64,000 nucleotides of DNA from Artocarpus heterophyllus (Eukaryota; Streptophyta; Magnoliopsida; Rosales; Moraceae): NCBI GenBank assembly GCA_025403435.1, contig CM046354.1:36992459-37056458 (forward strand). The letters run 5' to 3'. Made by a program: the position numbers and the translations under genes. The notes below the pieces were generated by a model. The model worked only from the letters and a program-made list of their open reading frames with translations. It made no database searches and was not told the DNA's origin. This document shows, one piece after another, positions 9,018 to 56,340 of this stretch (position 1 is its first letter; each line of letters starts with the position of its first letter).

Positions 9018-9276
9018 TGTAACACCCGTATTTTTAACGGGCATGATTTTGTAAAATTTAATGAATAAAATGTGACTATTTAAAATTACTAAGTTGTTTA
9101 TGATCATTAAAAAAAAAAATGCCACTTTAGTATTTTCTTACCAAGTCTTCCTAAGAAACATTCAAAATTTACCAACACTTACTTCTACCAATCTTGTCTC
9201 CCTAAATTATTGCTCAATTATATAGCCTTCTTCTCATTTTGCTAAAGGTATCCGAAGGGGACATTGAATTATTTTC
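9018..9276 (+). mobile_element. Older Ty3/gypsy solo LTR, left piece
   Basis: It begins TGTAACACCC directly after CAAAG (9013-9017). The rest of this LTR resumes at 18497 and ends GGGTGTTACA at 21045, followed by CAAAG at 21046-21050, a perfect 5-bp duplication. The gap is exactly the cargo element at 9277-18491 plus one copy of its TTTTC duplication. The total LTR length is about 2.8 kb. The terminal TGTAACACCC...GGGTGTTACA is frequent in plant chromoviruses. Confidence 0.85.
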
Positions 9277-9330
9277 TGTGACACCTGTTATTCTCCTAAG
9301 GGTATTAAGGTAATTAGATTAATTACCTAG

Positions 9331-9420
9331 TATATATATAAAAAAAAATCAGAAAATCTCTCATAATTCGAAACTCTCTCTCTCTCTCTACTTTCTCTCT
9401 CTAAAAATTCTCTCTCTCTC
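9331..9420 (+). promoter_or_regulatory. LTR core promoter: TATA box and CT-rich start region
   Basis: TATATATATAAAA at 9331-9343 is followed about 30 bases later by a pyrimidine-rich tract of repeated CTCTCT, the usual layout of a plant core promoter (TATA plus Y-patch). The 3' LTR has the equivalent at 16140-16152. Transcription from here would cover the whole element. The start site itself is inferred. Confidence 0.55.
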
Positions 9421-10157
9421 CTCAAAGATCGTCTGAGATTTCAGCATCCGTTTTCGACACCTCCCGCACCAATGGAAAGCTCTCGACGAGCTGAGTCCAA
9501 CGAGGTGCCGCGCCGCCCAAAACGCCACCGGAGGAGACCACACGCGCCGCCCAAAGTGGCGGCGAAACCCATTTCTTTCCGACGAGATATCTTCGCCGTC
9601 CGACGTCCGATCGACGTGATTCTTGTTCCTACACGACCACCGTGATGAGAGGAACAAAACTCACCCTTGGTGGCAACTCAACAACCGCCGGATTGCTCCG
9701 CCCGCCTATTGTCGCCGTGCGCCGCCGCCCCCATGGTGGAACTCTGCCTTGCCAGAGGAGGTGACTGACACCACCCCTCCCAATGAGTTCAGAGGATCAA
9801 GGGGAGTAAAACCCCTCGATCAATTGTACGGAAGGAGCCGGTTTCGCCGGAGAACGGCCAACGCCGCCGTCAACCGCCGCGGGAGCCTCCGTTTTGGCTC
9901 TTCCCAGCCACGTTTCTTCAAATTGGATGAGGGGAAATGCTCATAGGAGGATGGGTAGCAAAAGCCCTCAGCCAATTTCAGGTTTCCATCGTCGGAGAAT
10001 CAAGATCGGAGCTCATCCATTTCTACCGACGTTGTACTTCACGACCCGCTATGTTAGAGGCAGAATTAGGTGAAATTGACCCAGCCATTGGACTCAGAAG
10101 GGTCGATTTAGGGGGGGTAGGCCCGAGCCCAGCTGTCAACGGACCCCGATTGACGCC

Positions 10158-10224
10158 GGTCAACGACGGTCAAAGTCGGTCAACGCTGGTCAACGGTGGT
10201 CAACGCCGGTCAACGGCTAGTCAA
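10158..10224 (+). promoter_or_regulatory. Array of six GGTCAA (W-box complement) sites at exact 10-bp spacing
   Basis: GGTCAA occurs at 10158, 10168, 10178, 10188, 10198 and 10208, with a seventh variant AGTCAA at 10219. Read on the minus strand these are TTGACC, the W-box core bound by WRKY factors, spaced one helical turn apart. The same array is in the 3' LTR from 16968 to 17034. It is absent from the shorter LTRs of the second cargo element and from the older solo LTR. Whether it binds WRKY proteins is inference. Confidence 0.5.
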
Positions 10225-11266
10225 CGGCGACTTTGGATTTTTGTGATCTGGACCTCCGATCGACTATCCGAGACCTCCTCCTGACTCGTTTCGATGCTCT
10301 GAATGCAATGGTGACCTCCGTTCGAGCAAATTCCACTCCGATGAAAATCATTCGGTACCAACTGCACGCGAATCGAGGCGATTCAAACAGCAGTATCGGA
10401 GTCCAGAATGACGTTTTCAAGAATGTATGATCTCCAAGAAGCATTCCTAGCCATTCATAGTCACTCGAGGAGCACTACAGAGGATGCTTCGTAGATACAG
10501 CGAGATACAACTGGATCTGTTTTGCTTGGAGTTCAAGATCAAGGGAGTATGGAGCTAACGTTAATTGATTCCAGGATTAAGAGACTGTTGATAAGCTTGA
10601 AAGGTAGGGATTCTATTACTCATCTTTTGTGAGGTTTTTATAGAATTAAAATTGATTGTTTTGCCGCAATATATATATATATATATATATATCTATGTTG
10701 AACTGATATTATATGAGTATCACATATGAAACTATGACATGGACTCGTCTTGTATTGTACGGCGAGGAACATAATGAATTGACACATGTTATAAATTGAG
10801 AAGCATGGTTAGGAAAACTGACTCTATTAATAATGATTTAATATAGAGAAATGGTGAGACATGAAGAGGGCGGCGATTACGTCCTTGGGCATGAATACCC
10901 TAAAAGGTAAAATATGGGGAAGGTGATGACGCTTCCTTGGGTTGAAAGTCCCAGAACACACTGTACAGGAATCGACTTGGTGAGGACTCGGGGCTTGATG
11001 TCCCCTCACCGGAACACCCTTGGAATGTTTATAGGGTGATCAAGTACGCCCATTTGGGTTTCGATGAGTTGAGTGATACTCAATTTAACATGGATACCTA
11101 GGAACAATGATGATTGGTAATATTTGTATAAATGTGTAATTATGAAACTTGGTAATGATTAACTACGGTATCCATAAGATGTGATCATAATAAACCTCAT
11201 AATCTGGAATATGATGTAACTTACTAACCATGCAGGTTTTAATGTGGTAATGATAAAAACCTAAAG

Positions 11267-11330
11267 GTGAGTAATGGCTTTCTCTACTGAGCATAGTGTC
11301 GCTCATTCCCTTATATTTTTATCTTTTCAG
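11267..11330 (+). other. Candidate conserved 64-nt intron in the LTR
   Basis: AAG/GTGAGTAA at 11267 and TTTTCAG/G ending at 11330 form a strong donor and a pyrimidine-rich acceptor. The same pair occurs at 18071-18134 (3' LTR), at 20641-20703 in the older solo LTR (63 nt), and on the minus strand at 44225-44288 in the second cargo element (64 nt). Its other LTR keeps the donor (54692) with a shifted acceptor. Sequence between the sites varies while ends and length persist, which favours a real leader intron. 64 nt is near the lower limit for plant introns. Confidence 0.4.
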
Positions 11331-11694
11331 GACTCACTAAGTGTGAGGTGGCTACGAGAAATATAGTTGAGGAAGTGATGTAGCTATATTACATTGGGAC
11401 TACTTCAATTGTTGAGAATGTTCTTCATGATAATGTAAGCATCAATTGTTACTTTCTGTGACTGTATTACAATGTGTTGAGGGTTAAAATGATGATGACA
11501 ACAGTTTATATTATTAAATTTAAGGTGCTACATTAAACTGTGGTTTATTTATCGTTTATATTTTTATTTTTGAGTTGGAAGTTTTCATTTAAGTCCCGGG
11601 CAAATTTTATTTTTAAGGTTTTACTTTTATTATTTATTTTTATTTTATCTCATTAAAAACTGTTAACCCCCATATAGGGGCGTTACAGAATTTT

Positions 11695-11707
11695 TGGTAT
11701 CAGAGCC
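11695..11707 (+). other. Primer binding site, tRNA-iMet
   Basis: TGGTATCAGAGCC, eight bases after the 5' LTR end, is complementary to the 3' end of plant initiator methionine tRNA. It confirms the element's orientation and its LTR retrotransposon nature. Confidence 0.92.
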
Positions 11708-13066
11708 TAGGTTCGGTTAACCTAGGGAGTGTAGCACCACTTTAAAAAAATATATATATATTTTTTAGATGGTTTTGAAGCTGAATTTTCATTGTCATCA
11801 TCAAAATGAACCTTCACATTGATTTATACAGTCTAGAAGGATGTAACATGGAAAGGCCATAGAATGAAAATACTAATGGTTATATGAGTACAATAATTAT
11901 ATAGAAGGAAAGTGTTAATAGTTATGAGGGAATGATAATTATATGGAATGAGTTTATAAGTAGAATGCTTATGAGAAATTCGTATAATATTTTGATCTAT
12001 AAGCATATCTAATTCGTATAAACGATGAGAAATTCGTATAGATACGAGGATTTAAGAGCCTTTTGTCTCGTGAAAAACAATAAGAAATATAAAGCTTGAT
12101 TTATTGATTTTAAAGTTTGGCATAGATATGCCAAATTTTTTGTAATTAATTCAAACCTAAGTAATGATTATGTGTGGATTCGATGGAGCACATAAGTGTC
12201 AATATCTTTTTTTAAAAGTTCTATTTATTTGAGGAATATGATATAAGTTGGGAATCATGGTATTGAATCTTGAGAGAGATAAATGTTAGACTTTTGGTTT
12301 GTTGAGGCTGTGTAAAGTCTAGAATGCATGAATCTCAAAATTGGAATATTTTGTTACGTACATTGTATTTAAGTGTATCAGTGAATCTTTATATATAGAT
12401 GCAATAGAAAAATGATCAATAGGAGTTTCCTTAAGTAAATCATAATACTTAAGGCACTTATAATAATTTTGGATAATTACGATAAAATGTTTAAGTTTTA
12501 GATGTTTAGATGTGAATCTTTTGGTTACCTAAGGTTTTGTTATATGAGGAAATTATATATTATATAAGTAGAATTGTGGGGATTGTAGATGTTCTTAAGT
12601 AGTAACATCTAGTGTCTTTGTTCATTGATATGGTCTACGTTGAAAGACGTAAATCGTATTGATTTCAAGGTTAGTCACATTCTAAACCCTTGGTAGTAAT
12701 GATGATGAATCCATTGATAGATGTTGAGTATTATGAATAACATATGGGTGTATGCATTGTTCAATAAGGTTTTCATTAAAACAAAATTAATTGAGTTGCT
12801 GGAAGATTATGTTGTTATGAAATGATTTTAAATATCATTCAGGAAGATCCTTGTTGTCGTTAAATTAGATTTGTTGTTCATAGTTAACTTTATCTATAGT
12901 GGGCTTTAAATTGGGTTTAAGATTTATACAAATTGGTTTTCAATTTTATGTTTGTTATTTAACTCGTTCTAAATGTGTTAAGGCCCGAAACAACCGGACC
13001 ATTTTCAACTAAGAACATTTGGGCCTAGTTCAAATCTTAAATCAGTTTGATTCACACTGTCTCTCC
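11708..13066 (+). other. AT-rich untranslated interior of the cargo element
   Basis: No gag-like or other coding frame is visible on either strand. It holds an inverted repeat TTTGGCATA-GA-TATGCCAAA at 12116-12135, partly recognisable in the second copy near 53935-53955. Homologous sequence is present at about 53100-54250 on the minus strand, so the region belongs to the family. It may hold packaging or dimerisation signals, but this is speculation. Confidence 0.5.
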
Positions 13067-13313
13067 CACGTGGTCTCTATACGTGTCATATACAGTGGTT
13101 TAATCATTGTTTACATATACGTTTACTGTGCATAGGAGCTTATTTCTCCGAGTTCACTTTTTCTCTCTTAATTTGTTATTTTCTCTCTAAATCGTAAATC
13201 CTCTTCTTTTTCATTAAAAATTCTTCTTTTCCTCTAAAAGAAGAAGGAATTCTAGGATTCTGCAATTTACTATCTTAATTTTTCCTTTCTATTTACTCTT
13301 CTTTCATCTGATC
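13067..13313 (+). promoter_or_regulatory. Putative internal promoter and 5' leader of ORF1, with conserved G-box
   Basis: CACGTGG at 13067-13073 lies 240 bases before the ORF1 start, followed by a block around 'tttactgtgcataggagct' and a CT-rich leader. The G-box (52977-52982) and this block are conserved before the broken ORF1 of the second element. The layout resembles a plant gene promoter with a pyrimidine-rich 5' UTR, suggesting that the cargo may be expressed from its own promoter as well as from the LTR. No clear TATA box was identified. Confidence 0.4.
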
Positions 13314-13835
13314 ATGGACCCAAAGTACCAACACATGAGAAACTATTTCCCATCACTCTCCCAAAAGATTCTCAGAAAGAAATACAAGGCTAGAATTACT
13401 CGGTTGTGGATTCTTATGCGTTTTGGCATCCCTTGTGATGTGAGAATGTTGATAGAGGGGAAAATCCGTCCGAGTGACTTTAGTCAAGATGTCGGTTTAC
13501 CAGGAACAGGTACCAGTCGTAGTGCAATGAAAAGAAGAGCCCGTGCCATCGTGGTCGCTTGTAACAAATGTGGAAGACAAAATTGTAACGGTAAATGTAC
13601 TTCACCTGGTTATATGTCTACGAATAGAGAGGATAAAATAAGGTTTTGTAGGGATGGACTTTCAAAGGAGAACTTGGATAGCATCCATCCTCCTCTTCAT
13701 GGTCACCCTAGTGGATATGTTCAAGGAGCTATTTTTAAACTCTGGCCTAAATTTTATACAGAAAGACAACGCCTCAGGAATATGGTATTTCTAGATCCTG
13801 TTTGCCAAGCCATAAGAAAACTGGATGGGGAATAA
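13314..13835 (+). CDS. Cargo ORF1: 173-aa basic, cysteine-rich putative nucleic-acid-binding protein
   Basis: An intact intronless frame from ATG in a good context (A at -3, G at +4) to TAA. Residues 1-60 are basic with hydrophobic patches (RITRLWILMRFGIP). A glycine-threonine turn and a basic cluster, SRSAMKRRARA, follow at 68-78. Next is a C-x2-C-x4-C-x3-C block (C83, C86, C91, C95) that could hold zinc, then a charged C-terminal half with GYVQGAIFKLWPKF. It is not a retroviral CCHC knuckle because the histidine is missing. The order of hydrophobic N-terminus, arginine-rich stretch and cysteine cluster resembles the small cysteine-rich proteins of carlaviruses and relatives; this is a weak layout match, not an established homology. 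A broken copy (52240-52774, minus) conserves most of the length. ORF2 follows 612 bp downstream. Confidence 0.7.
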   Translation: MDPKYQHMRNYFPSLSQKILRKKYKARITRLWILMRFGIPCDVRMLIEGKIRPSDFSQDVGLPGTGTSRSAMKRRARAIVVACNKCGRQNCNGKCTSPGYMSTNREDKIRFCRDGLSKENLDSIHPPLHGHPSGYVQGAIFKLWPKFYTERQRLRNMVFLDPVCQAIRKLDGE

Positions 13836-14447
13836 ATCATCGCTCTATAAAGGTTATTTAGTCTTTACTTATTTGAAGCAGTTTTAGCTGATGTTCAACA
13901 GTTTGTGTTTTTCTTTTACTCAGAATATTTGCTTTTGTGTTTGAAATAATTGTGATTATTAGATTGATACAGTAAGTGTTAATATCTTATTTAATTTATG
14001 ATTTTCTTAAATATATATAAATATATATAATAAAATATATTATCTTATCAGACACGTCACATACGGTACAGTAATATGTTTGAATTTTGAAAAGCTTATC
14101 CAGATATTTCAAGATTTGTGTCTCAAATTTCAAAAGTTCTACAGTATTTGTCGTTTATATTAAATTTCTATACTTGGTGTATATTTGTCAAAAAGTCTAC
14201 AGTTGTGTCAAGAGGGTCTTCTGTCAAATTGTTCTCAATTGTCAAAAGTTATACAATTAGAGTCTAATCTTTTTCAAAAAGTGAATCAGATTTTCTGTAA
14301 ACTATCAATCACCTTATCTTACTTTCTTATCCGCACAAGATTTTGTTTAAATCTTTGGATTACCTTTTCATTACCTACTCGTCTATCTCTTTAGCCCTTT
14401 TTGTATATTTCTCATCTTTAAAATCTCATGTAGAACCCGAAGTCTAA
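13836..14447 (+). other. Spacer between cargo ORF1 and ORF2
   Basis: 612 bp of AT-rich sequence with an ATATATAAA run near 14010-14040 and several short 'gtcaaaag/gtctacag' repeats at 14130-14260. The region is homologous to 51600-52240 on the minus strand of the second element. A 69-codon frame at 14185-14394 is not supported by the second copy. It could hold a promoter for ORF2, an intron of a joint transcript, or simply a 3' UTR plus 5' UTR. Confidence 0.5.
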
Positions 14448-15137
14448 GTGGAGCAGACATTAAGCAACCACTTCTATAAACCAAATATGTCTACCTCCCA
14501 GCCCACGAAGAAAATAAAAAATGTCTGTGTCTTTTGTGGTTCCAGCCTTGGAAAAGATAAAGCTTATTTAGAAGCTGCAAATCACTTAGGGCAAGTCCTA
14601 GCACACAAGAAGATTAACATAATCTATGGGGGTGGTAGTATAAAAATGATGGTAAATATGGCACTAGCAGCTAGGTCTAGCGACGCTACTGATGTAAGAA
14701 TTTGGCCTCATATTCCAGTTGAAGGAAACCTTTGTAAGGAAGCCATAGGTAAGGGAGAAGGAGTCAGGAGTATCCCTAGAAATTTTAAAGACATAATCTA
14801 TAATTCTGATGCTTTTATAGCATTACCTGGTGCTCTAGGTACTCTTGAGGAAATATTTGTAGTTGCTTGTGGGCAATTGTTGGGCTTTTATTCCAAACCT
14901 TTGGGACTGCTGAATGTAAATGGTTTTTATGACGGTCTTTTGAAATTTCTAGATTACGCTGTGGAAGAAAACATCACTACAGAATCAGAGAGACAAATCT
15001 TTGTTACTGCTTCAACAGCTGAGGAATTGATAGATAAAATGCAAATCATACATCCAGAATCTGACACTGCAACATCCAAGCTTGAATGGGAAAGGGAAAG
15101 CCGGGAGCGGCCAATTGATTTGAATCTCCATCTGTAA
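14448..15137 (+). CDS. Cargo ORF2: LOG-like (lysine decarboxylase-fold) protein with altered active site and EAR-like tail
   Basis: LOG enzymes release active cytokinin bases from riboside monophosphates. This 229-aa frame (216 if started at Met14, 14487, where family similarity begins) keeps the Rossmann-like fold landmarks: VCVFCGSS (26-33), IIYGGGS (58-64), DAFIALPGALGTLEE (121-135) and PLGLLNVNGFY (151-161). Host LOG genes are split by several introns; this copy has none, as expected after passage through RNA. Key changes are PGGxGTxxE to PGALGTLEE, loss of the Arg-Lys pair normally before the SDAF helix (here PRNFKDII), and GGGSxGLMG to GGGSIKMMV. Catalysis is therefore doubtful. The last six residues, DLNLHL, form an LxLxL/DLN-type repression motif not typical of LOG proteins as I know them. 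A broken copy on the minus strand at 50830-51580 keeps the same tail. Confidence 0.85.
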   Translation: MEQTLSNHFYKPNMSTSQPTKKIKNVCVFCGSSLGKDKAYLEAANHLGQVLAHKKINIIYGGGSIKMMVNMALAARSSDATDVRIWPHIPVEGNLCKEAIGKGEGVRSIPRNFKDIIYNSDAFIALPGALGTLEEIFVVACGQLLGFYSKPLGLLNVNGFYDGLLKFLDYAVEENITTESERQIFVTASTAEELIDKMQIIHPESDTATSKLEWERESRERPIDLNLHL

Positions 15138-16071
15138 TCTTTTTGTTTTATCTTTGGCATATAGGCATGTGTGTCCGTATTCGTGTGTTACGAATAACCG
15201 TTTGCCCTGTATTCTGTGTTTCTTGTGGTACGTTGTTGTTCAATCTTTTAGATTCATTGAGCCTAATGCCGGGATGGCTGGATACGGAGTACTTGATGCT
15301 CTCGAAACGCATCCTTCTTAAGGTCCGATCTTTTGTTTATCGATGTTTTTGTATCCTATAAGCATGCATGATATGGATAGCTGGTATACGGAGTGCCTTG
15401 TACTCTCGAAACGTATCCGTATCATATTTGTAATGTGTAATATTCTGTTAATATTATGTGGAAGTACCAGAGTCAGTTATGAGGATATTCCATATGAAAT
15501 ATGAGTATATTATTTGGGTTGAATGTTTGTGTCATGAGGATAGCTGTTTAATGAAAAATATGTCGGGTATGTTTGCAACCAGAGATTCCGTTTAATATCT
15601 CTATGAATAAGTTTAATGTATGGTTTTGAATAGAAGTGTTTTTGATATATGTTTTATGATTATGTTTTAGTTTATTAGTAGAGGTATGAAATCAAATATA
15701 TTTGACTTTTCCTTACTCAAAAAGGAAAAGGAACCTAAAGATGAAGTATATAAAATTTCTCTAGCAATCTCCTTAAATGTGATTGTAAATCACAGTCCAT
15801 GGACAATGAAGGACTGGAATCATGGTATGGTCAATATGTATGCCTGATCAGATTCTTAGACTATTATACGGTGTTACAAGTTGAAACTTGTCAGAAATAC
15901 TCTCATTGAGGGATTTAGAATTTAGAGTAAGATTTATTATGCAAGTAAATAAGTGGAGATACGATAACTTAAATTTGGAAGATAAACAACATTAACGGTT
16001 TAGACTCAGAATTGGAATCATAATTTTTACTAGTATTACTAGAATTGAAATTTTGAGGACGAAATTTCTTT
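15138..16071 (+). other. 3' untranslated interior of the cargo element
   Basis: No coding frame is supported. Blocks around 15290-15480 and 15700-16070 align with 45530-46640 and 50720-50830 of the second element, including 'agcatgcatgatat' and 'ctcgaaacg(t/c)atcc'. The latter also occurs as a nearby repeat within this element (about 15300 and 15400). Pol sequences are absent. Confidence 0.6.
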
Positions 16072-16084
16072 AAGGGGGGTAGAG
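16072..16084 (+). other. Polypurine tract of the cargo element
   Basis: AAGGGGGGTAGAG directly before the 3' LTR, preceded by GAGGACGAAATTTC, a box found before the tract in many plant Ty3/gypsy chromoviruses. It primes plus-strand DNA synthesis. Confidence 0.85.
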
Positions 16085-16085
16085 C

Positions 16086-18491
16086 TGTGACACCCGTTAT
16101 TCTCCTAAGGGTATTAAGGTAATTAGATTAATTACCTAGTATATAAATAAAAGAAAAATCAGAAAATCTCTCATAATTCGAAACTCTCTCTCTCTCTCTA
16201 CTTTCTCTCTCTAAAAATTCTCTCTCTCCTCTCAAAGATCGTCTGAGATTTCGGCATCCGTTTTCGACACCTACCGCACCAATGGAAAGCTCTCGACGAG
16301 CTGAGTCCAACGAGGTGCCGCGCCGCCCAAAACGCCGCCGGAGGAGACCACACGCGCCGCCCAAAGTGGCGGCGAAACCCATTTCTTTCCGACGAGATAT
16401 CTTCATTGTCCGACGTCCGATCGACGTGATTCTTGTTCCTACACGACCACCGTGATGAGAGGAACAAAACCCACCCTTGGTGGCAGCTCAACAACCGCCG
16501 AATTGCTCCGCCCGCCTATTGCCGCCGTGCGCCGCCGCCCCCATGGTGGAACTCTGCCTTGCCGGAGGAGGTGACTGACACCACCCCTCCCAATGAGTTC
16601 AGAGGATCAAGGGGAGTAAAACCCCTCGATCAATTGCACGGAAGGAGCCGGTTTCGCCGGAGAACGGCCAACGCCGCCGTCAACCGCCGCGGGAGCCTCC
16701 GTTTTGGCTCTTCCCAGCCACGTTTCTTTAAATTGGATGAGGGGAAATGCTCATAGGAGGATGGGTAGCAAAAGCCCTCAGCCAATTTCAGGTTTCCATC
16801 GTCGGAGAATCAAGATCGGAGCTCATCCATTTCTACCGACGTTGTACTTCACGACCCGCTATGTTAGAGGCAGAATTAGGTGAAATTGACCCCGCCATTG
16901 GACTCAGAAGGGTCGATTTAGGGGGGATAGGCCCGAGCCCAGCTGCCAACGGACCCCGATTGATGCCGGTCAACGATGGTCAAAGTCGGTCAACGCTGGT
17001 CAACGGTGGTCAACGCCGGTCAACGGCTAGTCAACGGCGACTTTGGATTTTTGTGATCTGGACCTCCGATCGACTATCCGAGACCTCCTCCTGACTCGTT
17101 TCGATGCTCTGAATGCAATGGTGACCTCCGTTCGAGCAAATTTCACTCCGATGAAAATCATCCGGTACCAACTGCACGCGAATCGAGGCGATTCAAACAG
17201 CAGTATCGGAGTCCAGAATGACGTTTTCAAGAATGTATGATCTCCAAGAAGCATTCCTAGCCATTCATAGTCACTCGAGGAGCACTACAGAGGATGCTTC
17301 GTAGATACAGCGAGATACAACTGGATCTGTTTTGCTTGGAGTTCAAGATCAAGGGAGTATGGAGCTAACGTTAATTGATTCCAGGATTAAGAGACTGTTG
17401 ATAAGCTTGAAAGGTAGGGATTCTATTACTCATCTTTTGTGAGGTTTTTATAGAATTAAAATTGATTGTTTTGCCGCAATATATATATATATATATCTAT
17501 GTTGAACTGATATTATATGAGTATCACATATGAAACTATGACATGGACTCGTCTTGTATTGTACGGCGAGGAACATAATGAATTGACACATGTTATAAAT
17601 TGAGAAGCATGGTTAGGAAAACTGACTCTATTAATAATGATTTAATATAGAGAAATGGTGAGACATGAAGAGGGTGGCGATTACGTTCTTGGGCATGAAT
17701 ACCCTAAAAGGTAAAATATGGGGAAGGTGATGACACTTCCTTGGGTTGAAAGTCCCAGAACACACTGTACAGGAATCGACTTGGTGAGGACTCGGGGCTT
17801 GATGTCCCCTCACCGGAACACCCTTGGAATGTTTATAGGGTGATCAAGTACGCCCATTTGGGTTTCGATGAGTTGAGTGATACTCAATTTAACATGGATA
17901 CCTAGGAACAATGATGATTGGTAATATTTGTATAAATGTGTAATTATGAAACTTGGTAATGATTAACTACGGTATCCATAAGATGTGATCATAATAAACC
18001 TCATAATCTGGAATATGATGTAACTTACTAACCATGCAGGTTTTAATGTGGTAATGATAAAAACCTAAAGGTGAGTAATGGCTTTCTCTACTGAGCATAG
18101 TGTCGCTCATTCCCTTATATTTTTATCTTTTCAGGACTCACTAAGTGTGAGATGGCTACGAGAAATATAGTTGAGGAAGTGATGTAGCTATATTACATTG
18201 GGACTGCTTCAATTGTTGAGAATGTTCTTCATGATAATGTAAGCATCAATTGTTACTTTCTGTGACTGTATTACAATGTGTTGAGGGTTAAAATGATGAT
18301 GACAACAGTTTATATTATTAAATTTAAGGTGCTACATTAAACTGTGGTTTATTTATCGTTTATATTTTTATTTTTGAGTTGGAAGTTTTCATTTAAGTCC
18401 CGGGCAAATTTTATTTTTAAGGTTTTACTTTTATTATTTATTTTTATTTTATCTCATTAAAAACTGTTAACCCCCATATAGGGGTGTTACA
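16086..18491 (+). repeat. 3' LTR of the cargo element
   Basis: 2406 bp, TGTGACACCCG...GGGGTGTTACA, followed by TTTTC (18492-18496). It differs from the 5' LTR by roughly 30 substitutions and a shorter AT run near 17480. It carries the same promoter-like TATA (16140-16152), GGTCAA array (16968-17034) and candidate intron (18071-18134). Confidence 0.93.
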
Positions 18492-18496
18492 TTTTC

Positions 18497-21045
18497 CCTC
18501 AATTCATAGAAGACATGGAGATATTCTCTCAACCACCTATTTAATTATTTCCTTACCTTCTTCTATAATTCACTCCAATTGTCCCCTCAATTATGTTGGC
18601 ATGATTTGCTAAAAGTCTCCATGGGATACAAGATGATATTTTCCTTTAAGACTCTTTTGTTTCTTCTTACAACTTTCCCCCGTAAACATCCTATTCCTCT
18701 TAAGCATTTTGATATCTTTTTATTTAACTATCACCACCTTCTTCTCTAGTTCTCATTCTCTCCCTTTCTCACTTCAAATTTCTAACTAAAGACATAGAGC
18801 ACAAAGCTCTCTTTGTGGCCAAGACAATTATAATTCCCAACCATGATCAAGGCAGTTTTAGAGTTAATTCAAGCTTGATTGTTAACCCGAACTTTGGTGC
18901 TTTTCAAAGAAGTTTTGAGGTAGGTTTTCTTTAATATAAACTTAGTTTTTAGTATGTATTTTCTCCCTGTTTAATGCATAATTTTCGTGTTCAAAATTCA
19001 TGCAAATTTCTAGTTATGTTAACATGCATCCTTAAATATTTATGAACAAAAACTTGAGTCTTGAGTTACAACCCACAACCAACTTTTATTTTGGTTTGAT
19101 GAAAATTTTAGAAACATGTTAGGAATGTTTAAAACCGGTTTCCATAACTTTAAGATTGATGTTCTAATGTTTTGAGCTTAAAGAGCAAATTTAAGCATGT
19201 TTTCATCATTATTTACAAGAAAGGCTAGAGATATAATTTGATAATGATTTTGGTATAAAACTCATGAGAATCTGTTTATTGTGATTATATAATGCATGTT
19301 GCATATTTTGGAATGGTTTTGAGATTTTAAACAAGGATAATATGCTTTAAGTTAAAGAAAAATTTGACATCCCATAAACTTTATAATACCTCTATGGGCA
19401 GTGGCTATTTCTTAAAATTCTGGAGTTAAATGAAAATGAATTTTGTAAATTGGTTTGCATATTTAAAAAGTAGACATCCTAAGCTTTCCAATGAGCTATC
19501 ATGAGCCTAAATCGGAGTTGTATTTTAATTTCTATGAATTTTTCAATTTTCGGATTAGAAACTAGTAAACCTGCCAGTGGTAATAAACCACCCGTCTATC
19601 TTAAGTAAACCACCTGTTAACCCGTGTGTTGATTGTAGATAGTGAACCCGCCTTTTTACAAAAGTATACCACCAAGTTGCCATGGTATACTAGCTGTTAA
19701 CTTGAACCAAAAACCCAACTTTGCTCACCTTCTAGTCTCTTAATGTCTTACAACCTTTCCAATACTATCCTAAATGATTTATGAATTCTTATTAGAGACT
19801 AAAACATAAAAATTGGTTGTATGTATTTTATATTGCGTTAAGATAAAAATTATTTACGTGGTATTTAAAGAACAATTGCATAAAAATACTTTAATGGCAC
19901 TAGTAGACGGGTTTGCACATAATTCACTTATGAATGTGATTATACGTTGTGCTTTAGTTTTAATTGTCCTTATGCATGCCTTAGGGTCAAGGATGTGTGG
20001 AGCTAACGTTAATTAATTCCGAGAATAAAAGTTTGTTGTTAAGCTTTGAAGGTAGGGATTCTATTACTCATCTTTTGTGAGGTTTTTGGTAAATTAAATT
20101 TGTTTGTTTTATGTTGTAAAATATGTATATTGTATAGCAAGGAATATAATGATTTGACATATGTTATAAATTGAGAAGCATGGTTAGAAAATTGACCCTA
20201 TAAATAAAAATTGAATACAAAGGAATAGTGAGATGTAAAAAGGGCGACGGTTACGTCCATGGGCACGAATACCCTAAAAGGTAAAATAGGGGGAAGGTGA
20301 TGACGCTTCCTTGGGTTGAAAGTCCCAGAATATACTGTACAGGAATCGACTTGGTGAGGACTCGGGGCTTGATGTCCCCTCACCGGAACACCCTTGGAAT
20401 GTTTATAGGGTGATCAAGTGCGCCCATTCGGGTTTTCGATGAGTTGAGTGATACTCTATTTAACATGGATACCTAAGAACAATGATGATTGGTAATATTT
20501 GTGTAAATGTGTAATTATGAAACTTGGTAATGATTAACTATGGTATCCACAAGATGTGATCATAATAAACCTCATAATCTGGAATATGATGTAACCTACT
20601 AACCATGCAGTTTTTAATGTGGTAATGGATAAACCATAAGGTGAGTCATGATTTCCCTACTGGGCATGTCGATGCTCATCCCTATCATATCTTCATATCT
20701 CAGGTGGAACTCAGTGCAACATATCTGAAGAGGAATAGGCGAAAACAATCCTGCTGTTTTCGTGTTAGAAGACCTTGTTTATTTGTAACTTATCTACAAC
20801 ATGTAAGAGTTGTATTATTTTGTTTCATGGCTGTGTTAAGTTATTTGGAAATTGTACTATGGTGATGATGACTGTAATTATATATATTTGGTGCTGCACT
20901 AAAAACTGTGGTTTGTATTTAAAACGTTTATTTTTATTTTTCTTGTTGTTTAAAGACCCATGGGCATTGTTTAATTGATTTAAATAATATAAAATTTAAA
21001 ATTATTTTTATTTATTTAAAACTGTCCCCACATAGGGGTGTTACA
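18497..21045 (+). mobile_element. Older Ty3/gypsy solo LTR, right piece
   Basis: Continues the LTR begun at 9018. From about 20000 it is clearly related to the cargo element's LTR (the 'ggtagggattctattactcatcttttgtgagg' region, the fragment around 20280-20400, and the donor/acceptor pair at 20641-20703). Residues 18497-19990 differ and lack the GC-rich leader. It ends GGGTGTTACA, then CAAAG. The cargo element thus inserted into an LTR of a related family. Confidence 0.85.
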
Positions 21046-42973: not shown

Positions 42974-43856
42974 GGTCATGGTCCTAGAGTTGAAATTCAA
43001 GACCAGGTTGAGGTCAGGGTAGGAATTCGAGACCGAGGATGGTGTCGCAATTTGGGTCGAGATTTGGGACTGAGGTTGAGGTCGGGATTTAGGACAAGGA
43101 TCGAGGTCAGGATTCGAGACTGGGGTTGAGGTTGCGATAGGGATTAGGGACTGGGGTTAGGTTCAAGATTTGAAATTTGTGGTTGGAGTCAGGATTCGAG
43201 GTTGAGGTTGGGATTATAAATTCAAAATCGAAGTTGGGGTTGAGATTCGGGATAGAGGTCGAGGTCGAGATTCGTGATACAAGGTCAGGGTTAGGATTAA
43301 AGACTAGGGTAGGGGTTAGGATTGGGATCAAGATTTGGGTCTAGGATTAGGGTCGGGATTCATGATTTGAGGTAGGCGTCAGGATCAAGATTCATAACTG
43401 GGGTTAAGGACAGGATTCAAGATCAGGATTGGGGTTGACATTGGGACCAAGATTCAGGACCGAGACTGGCATCAAGATTTAGGACCAGGGTTGGGATCAA
43501 AATTCAGGTTGAGGATCAGGGTTGGGTCAAGATTCTTGTTTTGAGGTCAACGTTAGGGTCAAGATTCGAGGTTAGGGTTGGGATTCGAAACTAGGGTCAA
43601 GCTCAGGATTTACAATTCGAGGTTTGGGTCAGGGTTGGGATTCACGATCGAGGTTAGGGTTGGGATTCTGGATTAGGACCAGGTCAGGATTTAGAACCAA
43701 GGTCAAGGTCAAAATTTACGATTCAAAATCTAGGTCGGAATTTGAGAATGATGTTTGGGTTGGGATTCAAGACTAGGGTCAAGTTAGGGCTCAAGATTCG
43801 AGACCAATACCAAGATCAAGATCAAGATTAAGATTGGGATTCGGGTCTAGGGATGG
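42974..43856. repeat. Degenerate minisatellite, left half
   Basis: About 880 bp made of variants of 'gaggtcgggattcgagac' in units of roughly 24-30 bp. The same array continues at 55918-56340; the second cargo element inserted between the halves. Minus-strand frames (for example 43107-43331, rich in NPNP) are reading frames of the repeat, not genes. Confidence 0.8.
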
Positions 43857-45510
43857 TGTAGCGCCCCTAATGGAGGTTAACATTTTTTAATAAATAAAAT
43901 AAAGATCAGAAAATAAAAATAAAACTTAAAAAAAAAAAAACAAAGTTGCTCCGAACTTAAATGAAACCAAATAAAAATATAAACAAACAAACCACAGTTC
44001 AATGTAGCAACCACAGTTTAATGTAGCACCTTAAATTGAATAATATAAAACTGTCATCATTATCATTCCAACCCTCAATACAACTTAATACAGTCAAGGA
44101 TAGTAACATACCGTGCGTATATTATTATGAAGGACATTCTTAATAAACAAAGAGATTCCAACTGAATATATTTACATACCTTCCTCAAATATGTTTCTTG
44201 TCACTAGCTCATATATTGCGAGTCCTAAAAAGATAAAAATATAGGAGAATGAGTGACCATATGCTCAGTAGGAAAAACCATTACTCACCTTTAGGTTTTG
44301 ATTATTGCCATATTAAAACCTACATGGCTAGTTAGTTCTCAATCATTATTCATCTTATGAGATTCATTATGATTATATTCCACAGATACCTTAAGTTAAT
44401 CATTACCGAGTTTCATACATATACATATGCACAAATATTATAGTTTACCAATGTTCCTAGGTATCCCCGTTTCAATAAAGTATTCATCACTCAACTTATC
44501 GAAATCCAAATAGGGTGCTTTTCCACTCTTCAATCATTCCAAGAGTGTCGGGTGAGGGGACATCAAGTTCTGGATCCTCATTAAGTCGATTCCTATACAA
44601 TGTGTTCTAGGACTTTCGACCCAAGAGAGCGTAATCACCTCCTCCCTATTTTTTCTTTTCCAAAATTTGTGCCCAAAGACGTAACTGCCGCCCTCTTCAC
44701 GTCTTACCATTCCTCTATAATCAATCATTATTTATAGAGTTAGTTTTCCTAGCCATGCTTCTCAATTTGCAACAACATATGTGAAATCAATTTATTCCTC
44801 GCTACATCATACATGGCAAGTTTTACATCTTTGTGTTATAAGGAATATTCATATACATTCAAAATATCATATACATATCTTGCAATGTAAAACAATCATA
44901 TTTAATTAGTCAAAACCTCACAAAAGATGAGTAATAGAATTTCTATCTCTTATGAATATACTACTGACAACTTCCAACTCAAGATACCAAGTTCACCACG
45001 TAAGCTCCAAGTATTTCATTATCCTCAAGCTTGAAGAAAATTAGTGATTTTGTTTGCAAAGATGTTTAATCTTTGTTTTGTGATTTTGGAAGATCTAAGC
45101 AAAATAACTTTGGATTTCTCTCTTGATTATCTTGGAGCTAAGTTAATGATCCTCGATCTTAGAGAGGAAACGAGAGAGAAAAAGAGAGAGAGAAAGAGAG
45201 AGATATGTGAGAGAGAGTGAAAGAAGGAAACTCAAAGAAGATTAAAATAATTGAAAGGGGATAGGTAGGTGAAGGGTGGTCTCCATCGGAGACTTTGGGG
45301 CCTATAATGCCTAATGGCATTTTTGAAATAATTTAAAAGTTCCAAGGGCATTTTGGTCAATATACTAAATAGGTATATTTTTAGAAAAATTAAAAATAGG
45401 TAAAAATAAATAATATGACATAGATTTTAGATGAAATAAAAATTTTAATTGGCACACTAATAATTGATTTAATTATAGTGATACCTGTCAGGAAAATAAC
45501 GGGTGATACA
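43857..45510 (-). repeat. 3' LTR of the second cargo element
   Basis: 1654 bp; on the minus strand TGTATCACCCG...GGGGCGCTACA. It carries the shared block with 'cctaaaggtgagtaatgg' and the 64-nt candidate intron at 44225-44288. It differs at many positions from its partner at 54276-55917, so the insertion is old. Confidence 0.85.
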
Positions 45511-50829: not shown

Positions 50830-51580
50830 GCCATAAGAAATACAGAGTGCGGGGAAAACGGTTAGGAACACATGAAATATGGACACACATGCCATGGGTA
50901 AAACCAAAAGATTACAAATGGAGATTCAAATCAAATGGTCGTTTTTGGCTTCCTTTCTCCCAATCAAGCTTGGACATTGTAGTGTCGGATTCCGAATGTA
51001 TGCTTTGCATCTTATCTAACAATTCCTCAGCTATTGAAGTACTAACAAAGATTTGTTTGCCCGATTCTACAATGAAATTTTCTTCTACGATGTAATCTAA
51101 AAATTTTAAAAGACCATTATAAAACCATTTACATTCAAAAGTCCCAAGGGTTTAGAGTGAATGCCCAATAAATTTCTACTAGCAACCACGAATATTTCCT
51201 CAAGGGTACCTACTCCACCAGGTAGTGCTATAAAAGCATCAGAATTATCAATTATGGTTTTATGACATTTAGGGGTGTCTAAAAGTCTTTTCTTCCTACC
51301 TATTGTTTTCCCACAAAGGTTCCCCTCAACTAGGAGATGAGGAATAATACCCAGGACTTCGGCACCACTAGACTTAGTTGTTGTTGCCACATTTCTCATT
51401 AATCCTTAGGTCAGGTTATTCTTCCTGCCTGCTAAGGCTTGCCCTAAGTATCTTGCAGCTTCTAGGTAGAATTTATTTTTTCCAAGGCTAGAACCACAAA
51501 TGACACAAACATTCTTTATTTTCCTGGTTAACTAGGAGGTAGACATATTTGGTTTGTATGAGTAATTGCTTTATGTCTGC
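50830..51580 (-). pseudogene. Broken LOG-like ORF2 of the second cargo element
   Basis: The minus strand keeps KIKNVCVICGSSLGKNK, then a deletion and stop that remove the GGGS region, then GIIPHLLVEGNLCGKTIG, NSDAFIALPGGVGTLEEIF, KPLGLLNVNGF, a frameshift, and a C-terminal part ending DLNLHL. Unlike the young copy, it retains PGGVGTLEE. The helix before SDAF reads PKCHKTIIDN, also without the Arg-Lys pair of host LOGs, so that loss predates the split of the copies. Stops and the deletion make it non-functional. Confidence 0.85.
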
Positions 51581-52239
51581 TCCATTTAGACTCGGGGTTC
51601 TACATGAGATTTTAAAGATGATGGATACGTAAAAGGACTAAGAAGTCAGACAAGTAGGTGACGAACTAGTAATCTAAAGGTCTAAATAAAATATTGTGCA
51701 GGTAAGAAAGTAAGAAAAAATGATTGATAGTTATGGAAAGCCTAATATACCTTTTAAAAATTTAGACTCGAACGGTATAACTTTTGATAATTGAGAGTGG
51801 TTTGATAGAAGACAATCTAACACAACTATAGACCTTTTGACAAATGTACACTGAAGCTAGAAAATCAATATAAACGACAAACTACTGTAGAACTTTTGAA
51901 ATTTAGACACAAGTCTCAAAATATCTAGATAAGTTTCAAAAATTCAAACATACTATAGTACCACATGTGATGTGTCTGACAGGGTAATATATTTTATTAT
52001 TATATATATTATTTTATTTTATTTTTTTAAGATAGTCATAAATTAAATGAGACACTAACACTTATTGTGTTAATTTAATAACCCTAATTATTTTGAACTA
52101 AAAATAAAACATTCTGAATACAAATAGTTTTTATCAAAGAGAAAGATAGATTATTGAATACCAACTGAAATGATTTCAAACAAACATTGAACAACCTTTA
52201 TAGAGCGATGACTTATTTCCTATCCAATTTTCTTGTGAT

Positions 52240-52774
52240 TTGGCAAATAGGATCATGAAATTTCATATTCTTGAGACGTTATATTTTTGCATGGAATTTA
52301 GGCCAGAGTTTAAAGATAGCACCTTGAACATATCCACTACGATGATCTTGAAAAGAAGCATGGAGTTCATTCAAGTTCTCCTTAAAAAGTCAATCCCTAT
52401 AGAACTTTATTTTATCCTCTTTATTTATGGATACAAATCTAGGTGAAGTACATTTATCGTTAGAGTTTTGTTGTCCACATTTGTTACAAGTGACTGCGGT
52501 GGCATGAACTCTTCTTTTCATCGCATTACGACTGGTAACCCATACTTGGTAAACTGATATATTGACTGAAGTCACTTAGACAGGTCTTCCCCTCTATTAA
52601 TATCCTCGCACCACTAGAGATGCCAAAATGCATAAGAATCCACAACCGAGTGATTCTAGTCTTATATTTCTTTTTGAGAATCTTCTGGAAAAATGATAAA
52701 AAATACTTTCGTAGGTGTTGGTACTTTGGGTCCATGATAAGATAAAAGAAGAGTAAATAGAAAAGAAAAATCAA
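52240..52774 (-). pseudogene. Broken cysteine-rich ORF1 of the second cargo element
   Basis: On the minus strand it starts MDPKYQHLRKYF and keeps KKYKTRITRLWILMHFGI; a frameshift falls near 52560, then come SRNAMKRR and CNKCGQQNSNDKC. The third cysteine of the block is now serine. The tail QGAIFKLWPKF and the end KLD are recognisable. It covers the full length of the intact 173-aa protein. The conserved G-box at 52977-52982 and the CT-rich leader precede it. Confidence 0.85.
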
Positions 52775-54275: not shown

Positions 54276-55917
54276 TGTAACGTCCCTAAGTAAAGGTTAA
54301 CAACTTTTAATAAATAAAATAAAGATTAGAAAATAAAAATAAAACTTCAAAAAAAAAGTTGCCTAGGACTTAAATAAAAACTCTCAAATCAAAATAAAAA
54401 TATAAATAAATAAATCACAATTTAATATAACACCTTAAATTGAATAATATAAAACTGTCATCATCATCATTCTAACCCTCAACACAACTTAATGCAGTCA
54501 AGGATAGCAACATTCAATACGTACATTATTATGAAGGACATTCTTAATAAACGAAGAGATTCCAACAGAATATATTTACATAGCTTTCTCAACTATGTTT
54601 CTTGTCACAACCTCATACATCGTGAGTCTTGAAAAGATGAAAATATAGGGGAATGAGCGAAAACATACTTAGTAGGGAAAAACATTACTCACCTTTAGGT
54701 TTTTATCATTGCCACATTAAAACTTGCAAACTTAGTTAGTTCTCAATCATTATTCATCTTATGAGATTCATTATGATTATATTCCATAGATACCTTACAT
54801 TAATCATTACCGAGTTTCATACATATACATATGAACAAATATTATAGTTCACCAATGTTCCTAGGTATCCACGTTTCAATAGAGTATTTATCACTCAACT
54901 CATCAAAACCCAAATGGGCATGCTTTTCTACTCTTCAATCATTCCAAGAGTGTCGGGTGAGGGGACATCAAGCCCTAGATTCTTAATAAGTCGATTTCTA
55001 TATAGTGTATTCTAGCACTTTTGACCCAAGGGAGCGTCATCACTTCCTCTTTATTTTTCCTTTTAGGGAATTCGTGCCCAAGAACATATCCGTCATCCTC
55101 TTCACGTCTTACCATTCCCTATAATCAATCATTATTTATAGAGTTAGTTTTCTTAACCATACTTCTCAATTTGCAACAACATATGTCAAATCAATTTATT
55201 CCCTGTTGCATAATATAAGACAAGCTCCACATCTTTGTGTTATGAGTAATATTCATATACATTCAAAATATCATATACATATCTTACAATGTAAAACAAT
55301 CAAATTTAATTAATCAAAACCTCACAAAAAATAAGTAATAGAATCCCTACCTCATGTGAATATACTGCTTATAACTTCCAACTCAAGATACCAAGTTTAC
55401 CACTTAAGCTCCAAGTACTTCGTTATCCTCAAGCTTGAAGAAAATTAGTGATTTTATTTGCAAAAATCTTTGATCTTTGTTTTGTGATTTTGGAAGATCT
55501 AACCAAAATAACCTTGGATTTCTCTCTTGATTATCCTGAAGCTGAGTTGATGATCCTTCATTTTAGAGTGGAAACGAGAGAGAAAAGAGAGAGAGAAAGA
55601 GTGAGATATGTGAAAGAGAGTAAAGGATGGAGACTCAAAGAAGATTAAAATAATTGAAGGGGAACCGGTAGGCGAAGGGTGGTCTCCATTGGAGACTTTG
55701 AGGCAAATAAAGCCAGGTGGCATTTTTGAAATAATTTAGAAGTTCCAAGGGCATTTTAGTCAATATACTAAATAGGTATAGAAAATTTTTTAAAAAAATT
55801 TAAAAATAGGTAAAAATAAATAATGTGAAATAGATTTTAGATGAAAAAAAATTTTAATTGGCACCCTAATAATTAATTTAATTATAATAATACCCGTTAG
55901 GAAAATAATAGGTGTCA
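54276..55917 (-). repeat. 5' LTR of the second cargo element
   Basis: 1642 bp; minus strand TGACACCTATTATTTTCC...GGGACGTTACA. It carries the shared LTR block, a donor at 54692 (minus) and an acceptor region near 54630 similar to the other LTRs. The CT/GA-rich stretch at 55575-55625 corresponds to the CT-rich start region of the young LTR. Confidence 0.85.
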
Positions 55918-56340
55918 CCGACGACGTCAGGTCAGGGCCAGATTCAAGATTGGGTTTGGGGTTAGGATTCATGATTTGGGGTCGGAGATAGGATTCAGGG
56001 TCGAGGTTGGGGTTGAGATTTAGGATTAGGGGTCGAGGTCGAAATTCAAAATAAGGACCAAAATTAGGGTTGGAATTCAAGACCGAGGTCGAGGGCAGGG
56101 TCGGGATTCGGGACAATGGTCAAGGTCAAGATTCAAGTCAGGGTTGGAATTCTAGATCGAGATTGGGGTTAGAATTTCATATCAGGCTCGAGGTCAGGAT
56201 TCATAATTTGAGGTTGAGGTCAAAATTCAAGATCAAGGTTGGGATCAAGATTTAGGACCAAGGTCAAGGTCAGAATCTAGGATCGGGGCTGGTCGAGGTT
56301 GGGATTTAGCATCGAAGCATGGTCAAGATTCTAGACCAGT
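55918..56340. repeat. Degenerate minisatellite, right half
   Basis: Continues the array of 42974-43856 with the same 'gaggtcgggattcaagac' variants and ends near 56340. The frames at 55790-56116 and 56070-56255 are repeat-derived. Confidence 0.8.

Follow-up and report, generated by a model that had tools for sequence, protein, structure and literature searches.

The window analyzed here, a 64,000-nucleotide stretch of Artocarpus heterophyllus contig CM046354.1, carries a young long terminal repeat (LTR) retrotransposon (positions 9277 to 18491) whose interior holds two open reading frames (ORFs) and no recognizable gag or pol. ORF1 (173 amino acids [aa]; 13314 to 13835, plus strand) is a cysteine-rich member of a family that matches carlavirus-type nucleic-acid-binding proteins in Pfam, and ORF2 (216 aa; 14487 to 15137, plus strand) is a LOG-like protein in one continuous frame. 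Our preferred explanation, held with moderate confidence, is a trans-mobilized element of the large retrotransposon derivative (LARD) type in which a virus-type zinc-finger protein is preserved and the LOG is turning into a pseudoenzyme. The element has its own LTRs, primer site, and polypurine tract and would receive gag, protease, reverse transcriptase, and integrase in trans. The two genes would form a long-lived cassette shared by this gag-pol-free lineage and an Athila-like family, in two copies of which it is seen. ORF1 would act on silencing or host transcription, as the studied viral protein suggests, and ORF2 would have begun as a LOG enzyme whose catalytic Arg and GLMG loop are gone in the young amplified family, leaving a pseudoenzyme or a passenger. 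Since this LOG is probably no enzyme, the recent success of the family would owe more to ORF1 and the LTRs than to cytokinin.

The structural framework named in the original prediction, which was made from the letters of the stretch, was confirmed in each of its parts. A TTTTC target-site duplication (9272 to 9276 and 18492 to 18496, unstranded) encloses two direct repeats on the plus strand, a 5' LTR of 2,411 bp with TG...CA ends (9277 to 11687) and a 3' LTR of 2,406 bp (16086 to 18491), which are 98.5% identical by blastn and differ by 30 substitutions over 2,405 aligned sites, 27 of them transitions. The primer binding site TGGTATCAGAGC (11695 to 11706, plus strand), which we take to be of the initiator-Met tRNA (iMet) type, and the polypurine tract AAGGGGGGTAGAG (16072 to 16084, plus strand), just ahead of the 3' LTR, complete the set. 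Both ORFs are open, and none of the 15 frames of the element scanned with Pfam matched gag or pol; the 12 other stop-to-stop frames of the interior (58 to 80 aa) gave no Pfam match above the cut-off, a BglI match in one interior frame (E = 0.01, below the cut-off) being at chance level. An Rfam scan of the window returned 0 matches. With paired LTRs, target duplication, primer site, and polypurine tract all present and gag-pol absent from the scanned frames, the element is a non-autonomous, LARD-like LTR retrotransposon. LARDs and TR-GAG elements have long LTRs and no pol, and LARD interiors are not known to hold conserved coding genes. The window family resembles both in its long LTRs and its missing pol, gag being absent as well; unlike LARDs, it keeps two ORFs, of which ORF1 is clearly constrained. 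It has neither the gag nor the primer site of the Athila type.

This family is abundant and recently active. A search of the 985-Mb genome with the LTR yielded 2,987 candidates, the best 40 of which were scored; the 39 places other than the query's own are 97 to 98% identical to it. Searches with ORF1 and ORF2 gave 5,789 and 6,104 candidates, respectively, and in each case the best 150 full-length places were scored: 149 of the 150 for ORF1 and all 150 for LOG are stop-free, shares that are biased upward because they come from the best-scoring places only. Twenty stretches were fetched at LTR matches, covering 23 of the 40 LTR places. Fifteen of them hold both ORFs (the stretch L016 cuts ORF1), two hold LOG sequence without ORF1 (L014 has only the LOG end), and three hold LTR sequence only, among them two solo LTRs flanked by 5-base duplications. 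Because the same order recurs at many places in the genome, the window element is neither a chimera nor a one-off, the two outcomes that the original prediction had said would count against it, and its proposal of a non-autonomous family that moves a two-gene cassette stands. In three other complete copies the two LTRs show 0 differences over 2,379 sites, 3 over 2,397, and 5 over 2,394, from which it follows that the family moved recently. The LTR-pair difference in the family ranges from 0 to 1.25%; the pair of L014 (58 of 2,376 sites) did not enter the dating, since no more than a part of the interior lies between these two LTRs.

ORF1 combines a basic stretch, KRRARA, with a following C-x2-C-x4-C-x3-C motif, and it is this basic stretch and the four Cys (positions 83, 86, 91, and 95) that form the conserved core of its family. 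All four Cys are kept in eight of the nine ORF1 copies of unbroken length (motif counts here and below leave out the 6 of 15 ORF1 copies that are not of unbroken length and the 1 frameshifted LOG copy of 17). A single-sequence search retrieved 15 proteins at E ≤ 1, 14 of which carry a precomputed Carla_C4 match. A profile search gave 855 plant-family protein matches at E ≤ 0.01, of which 120 were listed; among the matches listed, the organisms named are Populus, Xanthoceras, Acer, Rhamnella, Hibiscus, and Orobanche. In an alignment of 60 family members, 47 match Viral_NABP and 47 match Carla_C4 at E ≤ 0.001, and none matches a retroviral knuckle in Pfam at that threshold. Two of the relatives, P0150 and P0155, lie above the cut-offs of both viral families, and the ORF1 of L030, another cassette copy in the genome, lies above that of Carla_C4 only (23.6 versus 20.9). 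The ORF1 profile found nothing better than E = 0.41 in the PDB, and an AlphaFold model built with 60 sequences is poor (pLDDT 69.2, pTM 0.31); an NCBIfam match to KduD (E = 0.0006; 19.3 bits, where the cut-off is 430) was taken as chance.

At the level of Pfam profiles, ORF1 is thus a predicted zinc-finger-type protein of a family that matches the carlavirus nucleic-acid-binding proteins. It is like the carlavirus cysteine-rich proteins (CRPs), e.g., p12 of chrysanthemum virus B, in having a basic stretch followed by a four-Cys finger and in the match of its family to Viral_NABP and Carla_C4 (PMC7588395 and PMC12172455); unlike them, it sits on a retroelement, and its longest match, in a comparison made through Pfam profiles, is restricted to the finger region. 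According to the same reports, p12 activates transcription in the nucleus, suppresses silencing weakly, and causes hyperplasia when expressed. By analogy, ORF1 most likely binds nucleic acid and would shield the transcripts of the element from silencing or adjust host transcription. The original prediction had suggested a role in silencing for the cysteine-rich ORF, which fits both the family match and the suppressor activity reported for p12 (PMC7588395). The carlavirus likeness itself may reflect gene transfer in either direction or a shared domain alone.

Polymorphism among the copies indicates that ORF1 is under purifying selection. Among polymorphisms shared by at least two copies, ORF1 has 10 synonymous and 3 nonsynonymous (P = 2 × 10−5 against sites) and LOG has 6 and 6 (P = 0.03); among singletons, the synonymous/nonsynonymous counts are 11/20 for ORF1 (P = 0.04) and 11/16 for LOG (P = 0.02), all of these P values treating sites as independent. 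Between the window element and L030, dN/dS is 0.16 for ORF1 (at a dS of about 1) and 0.30 for LOG, and for LOG between L030 and L032 it is 0.18. Against the decayed copy in the window described below, the values, with decay included, are 0.53 for ORF1 and 0.43 for LOG. On the branch leading to the young family, the ORF1 value is 0.23 (0.08 to 9). The LOG of the window family appears to be under weaker or changed constraint.

ORF2 is a clear member of the LOG fold family (PF03641, E = 4.8 × 10−20; PDB code 2a33, E = 6.4 × 10−43) and belongs to PF03641 and TIGR00730, while scoring far under the NCBIfam CtkRMPhLog cut-off (84.2 versus 300). For the Corynebacterium enzyme (CgLOG), a catalytic role has been proposed for Arg99 and Glu122, and replacement of active-site residues by alanine, Ser19 excepted, almost abolished activity (PMC4979012). 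At the place of CgLOG Arg99, the window family has Asn in all 16 LOG copies of unbroken length, and all 16 read KMMV in place of the GLMG loop; the PGGxGTxxE motif is kept in 15 of them, the window copy itself reading PGA. Across 122 aligned proteins (the window LOG, AtLOG3, and the 120 best relatives), Arg occupies the catalytic place in 115 and Asn in 2, namely, the window LOG and P0016, a 97% near-copy of it. The Arg is also kept by five other copies of the cassette in this genome (L029, L030, L031, L032, and L036). The neighboring places Met96 and Lys100 also differ in the window LOG, as they do in the Arg-keeping L030. The protein ends in DLNLHL, an LxLxL-type ending found in 91 of the 122 aligned proteins; endings of this type resemble EAR-type repression motifs. 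The window family thus shares with the plant enzymes AtLOG3 (2a33) and AtLOG8 (1ydh) the fold family and, in all but one copy, the PGGxGTxxE motif, but differs from them in being without the catalytic Arg and the GLMG loop, in its LxLxL-type end, in its one continuous frame, and in its multicopy state. Because the Arg and the GLMG loop are gone, the LOG of the window family is probably no longer an enzyme, i.e., probably a pseudoenzyme whose activity has been lost, and it would be either on its way to being lost or used as a non-catalytic protein. The original prediction had described two intact ORFs without replication proteins; the frames are open and gag and pol matches are absent, but an open ORF is not an intact enzyme.

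The pair of ORFs is older than the young family. The same window holds a decayed relative (55919 to 43857, minus strand) with remnants of both ORFs: its 5' LTR (54276 to 55919, approximate ends) and 3' LTR (43857 to 45510) are about 88% identical, and between them lie an ORF1 remnant with stops (52213 to 52734), a LOG remnant with stops in which PGGVGTLEE can still be read and Cys stands at the place of the Arg (50914 to 51546), and about 4 kb of interior that does not align to the young element, parts of which align with L033 and L030 (46647 to 50716), all on the minus strand. When the LTR end of this relative and its first interior bases were used as the query, 40 places were scored, the 39 others being 80 to 84% identical. 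Four such older relatives were read: in L032, L033, and L035 the two ORFs are present and arranged as in the window element, and L034 has LOG only; the interiors of all four align with the gag-pol-free interior of the window element, a result of alignment only, their frames lying outside the Pfam scan. Short similar repeats flank the relative in the window (43045 to 43508 and 56208 to 56281).

A broader search used a 65-residue AtLOG3 query, for which the best 150 of 3,696 candidates were scored. Twelve of the 150 matches start at query residues 23 to 32, as expected of host exons; the other 138 span the whole query at 42 to 51% identity, in open frames of 88 to 259 aa, a few of them with stops. 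Two of the spanning matches, L029 and L036, are 94 to 95% alike over most of their shared length and 92% over one piece, and they represent a second multicopy family, with gag and protease and without a reverse transcriptase ahead of the cassette. L029 encodes a gag (PF03732, E = 2.1 × 10−22), the aspartyl protease PF13650 is above the cut-off in L036 and below it in L029, and a possible zinc knuckle in the gag of this family is below the cut-off. The order is gag, protease, ORF1, LOG, so that the cassette lies downstream of the protease, and the gap between protease and ORF1, 0.7 to 1.2 kb, is too short to leave room for reverse transcriptase and integrase. Four other frames of L029 gave no Pfam match; its gag-protease frame is split by two stops. 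A candidate primer site in L029, TGGTGCCGTTGCC, has 3 mismatches to an Asp-type query and is close to TGGCGCCGTTGCC; this site and the gag sequence presumably point to Athila, and we call the family no more than Athila-like because no reverse transcriptase was found in it that would place its lineage. It differs from the window family in keeping gag and protease.

Two further cassette copies, L030 and L031, share little beyond a 2.4-kb cassette region (82.7% identity). In a protein tree of 46 rows, which left out host LOG exons and in which L029 is a long branch, a single group (100/100) takes in the LOGs of the window, P0016, L032, L030, and L029 and lies within a 36-row clade (100/98) that excludes AtLOG3 and AtLOG8. 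ORF1 and LOG are an old cassette, which retroelements of at least two kinds carry in this genome. The Populus proteins P0020, P0023, and P0056 group with retroelement LOGs in the clade of LxLxL-type LOGs and for that reason may be retroelement genes rather than host LOGs; two of the three bear the name LOGL10 in their source. A pairing in another species is hinted at by P0062, a LOG, and P0150, of the ORF1 type, both with a longest contig of 8,723 bases that could not be read; other equal contig sizes in the ORF1 and LOG lists belong to contigs too short to mean more than chance.

Several observations weigh against the explanation we prefer. On the side of ORF1, the window copy has no Pfam match at E ≤ 0.001 and lies below the cut-offs of both viral families (Viral_NABP, E = 0.011, 16.2 versus 23; Carla_C4, E = 0.12, 12.8 versus 20.9), and about residues 63 to 118 are the only part that matches them, the viral proteins themselves and the finger spacing being outside the comparison. 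A search of IMG/VR viral contigs with the ORF1 alignment gave 54 pattern matches, none confirmed as a relative. L026, a copy with identical LTRs, has lost one ORF1 Cys, and when the count is confined to copies that cover 95% or more of each ORF, the window's included, ORF1 is open in 9 of 15 and LOG in 15 of 17, which, taken alone, would make LOG the better kept of the two. Weaker constraint on LOG is uncertain, its young-branch dN/dS being 0.81 (0.37 to 6.0) with L032 as the reference and 0.44 (0.23 to 0.85) with L035. Three older copies, all of them decayed, also lack the Arg: L035 has His there, and L034 and the old copy in the window have Cys. This may be decay and is indistinguishable from earlier loss. 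As the LOG of L033 is too broken at this place to read, the statement that the Arg was lost only in the young family draws on few copies. Lastly, an autonomous partner or source of reverse transcriptase was not found in searches none of which could be aimed squarely at it, and mobilization in trans is accordingly an assumption.

The alternative that survives best, although we think it rather unlikely, makes ORF1 the packaging protein of the element, a zinc-finger RNA chaperone that marks its transcripts for the capsid and reverse transcriptase of another element, with LOG as a passenger and the carlavirus likeness a shared domain. In neither cassette-bearing kind that was read does a reverse transcriptase lie beside the cassette, so that a helper of mobilization in trans would be useful, and the shared polymorphisms place the stronger constraint on ORF1. 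Yet the Athila-like family, which has its own gag (PF03732) and a possible zinc knuckle below the cut-off, still carries ORF1, and the ORF1 family matches two viral families and no retroviral knuckle.

Less probable still is that both ORFs are functionless passengers whose apparent conservation comes from the descent of all copies from a few recent source elements. The youth of the family, the missing catalytic Arg, the 9 of 15 open ORF1 copies, and the dN/dS values of 0.53 and 0.43 against the decayed copy agree with this. It is opposed by the 10-to-3 excess of synonymous shared polymorphisms in ORF1, the ORF1 dN/dS of 0.16 at a dS of about 1 against L030, and the presence of the same ORF pair in older relatives.

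We consider it very unlikely that active cytokinin produced by this LOG alters hormone signaling where the element is active, as the original prediction had proposed. The clear fold family, the PGGxGTxxE motif in 15 of 16 copies, and the Arg and PGG kept by relatives on other elements would suit an enzyme; however, with Asn in place of the catalytic Arg in 16 of 16 copies, cytokinin production by the window family is unlikely, and KMMV for GLMG and the PGA of the window copy point the same way. That one element recently took up the mRNA of a host LOG in a single transduction, in the style of maize Bs1, which the original prediction had cited as a precedent, is hardly credible: the continuous LOG frame, set against the 12 exon-like host matches, is what such an event would leave behind, but in the tree, which left out host LOG exons, the LOG group lies in a clade apart from AtLOG3 and AtLOG8, and ORF1 travels with LOG across families, in older relatives and in the Athila-like family alike.

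Some features of the element lie apart from these questions. A G+C-rich block in the 5' LTR (9450 to 10560, plus strand; 55% G+C versus 34% in the remainder of the LTR downstream) is present in the 3' LTR as well and is possibly captured sequence; the older LTRs of the window align by blastn only with positions 1326 to 2411 of the young LTR and not with the block. An LTR fragment at 19987 to 20667 is 82 to 91% identical to the LTR of the element. The spacer between the ORFs (13836 to 14486) has a mean variation of 1.1% among copies, against 2.2 to 2.6% in other non-coding parts, the sets of copies compared being different; it is possibly a promoter or an intron.

The original prediction knew of no LOG-carrying LTR retrotransposon, a claim overtaken by published Gypsy-type plant elements with a YgdH/LOG domain from Citrus and Populus (PMC9289625). 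The window family and, in this genome, the Athila-like L029 and L036 resemble those elements in having a LOG-family ORF within an LTR retrotransposon. The published consensuses were assembled around a reverse transcriptase, which the window family does not have; this family has an iMet-type primer site, a carlavirus-type partner ORF, and a LOG without the catalytic Arg. Neither "carla" nor "nucleic acid binding" occurs in the text of that report. A further parallel described there is that of orchid Ty3/Gypsy elements of 25 kb with an AlkB m6A demethylase whose activity was shown (PMC9289625). The two cases agree in that a retrotransposon family has retained an additional domain that plant RNA viruses use as well; the window family has a different domain and no gag-pol, and is known from sequence alone. 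As to what is new, we found no report, in the literature searched, which left most subscription papers outside, of the pairing of a carlavirus-type ORF with LOG or of a family that has both and is free of gag-pol. Steinbauerova et al. reportedly described, in 2011, two Athila-like elements with similarity to LOGL4.

We also put forward, tentatively, a wider proposal, which is possible at best: that a host-manipulation cassette, made up of a virus-type zinc-finger regulator and a cytokinin-activating enzyme, has long been carried by eudicot retroelements, at the place downstream of gag-protease that env-like ORFs take in some Athila elements, and has moved between retroelement lineages, enlarging the pool of dividing cells through which copies are inherited, and that in the window family the hormone half is now a pseudoenzyme and the burst is driven by the regulator half. 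The dividing-cell pool would be enlarged because the viral CRP, through hyperplasia, and LOG, through cytokinin, can both push cells to divide. The extra genes that retrotransposons keep show what limits these elements in their hosts, and the pairing of ORF1 with LOG in several families, with natural versions that have and lack the Arg, makes it testable whether the gain lies in countering silencing, in cell division, or in neither. For plant genomes at large, genes annotated as "LOG" that lack introns and occur in many copies may belong to retroelements, and if the proposal of a host-manipulation cassette is true, some plant genes annotated as LOGL10 would be among them.

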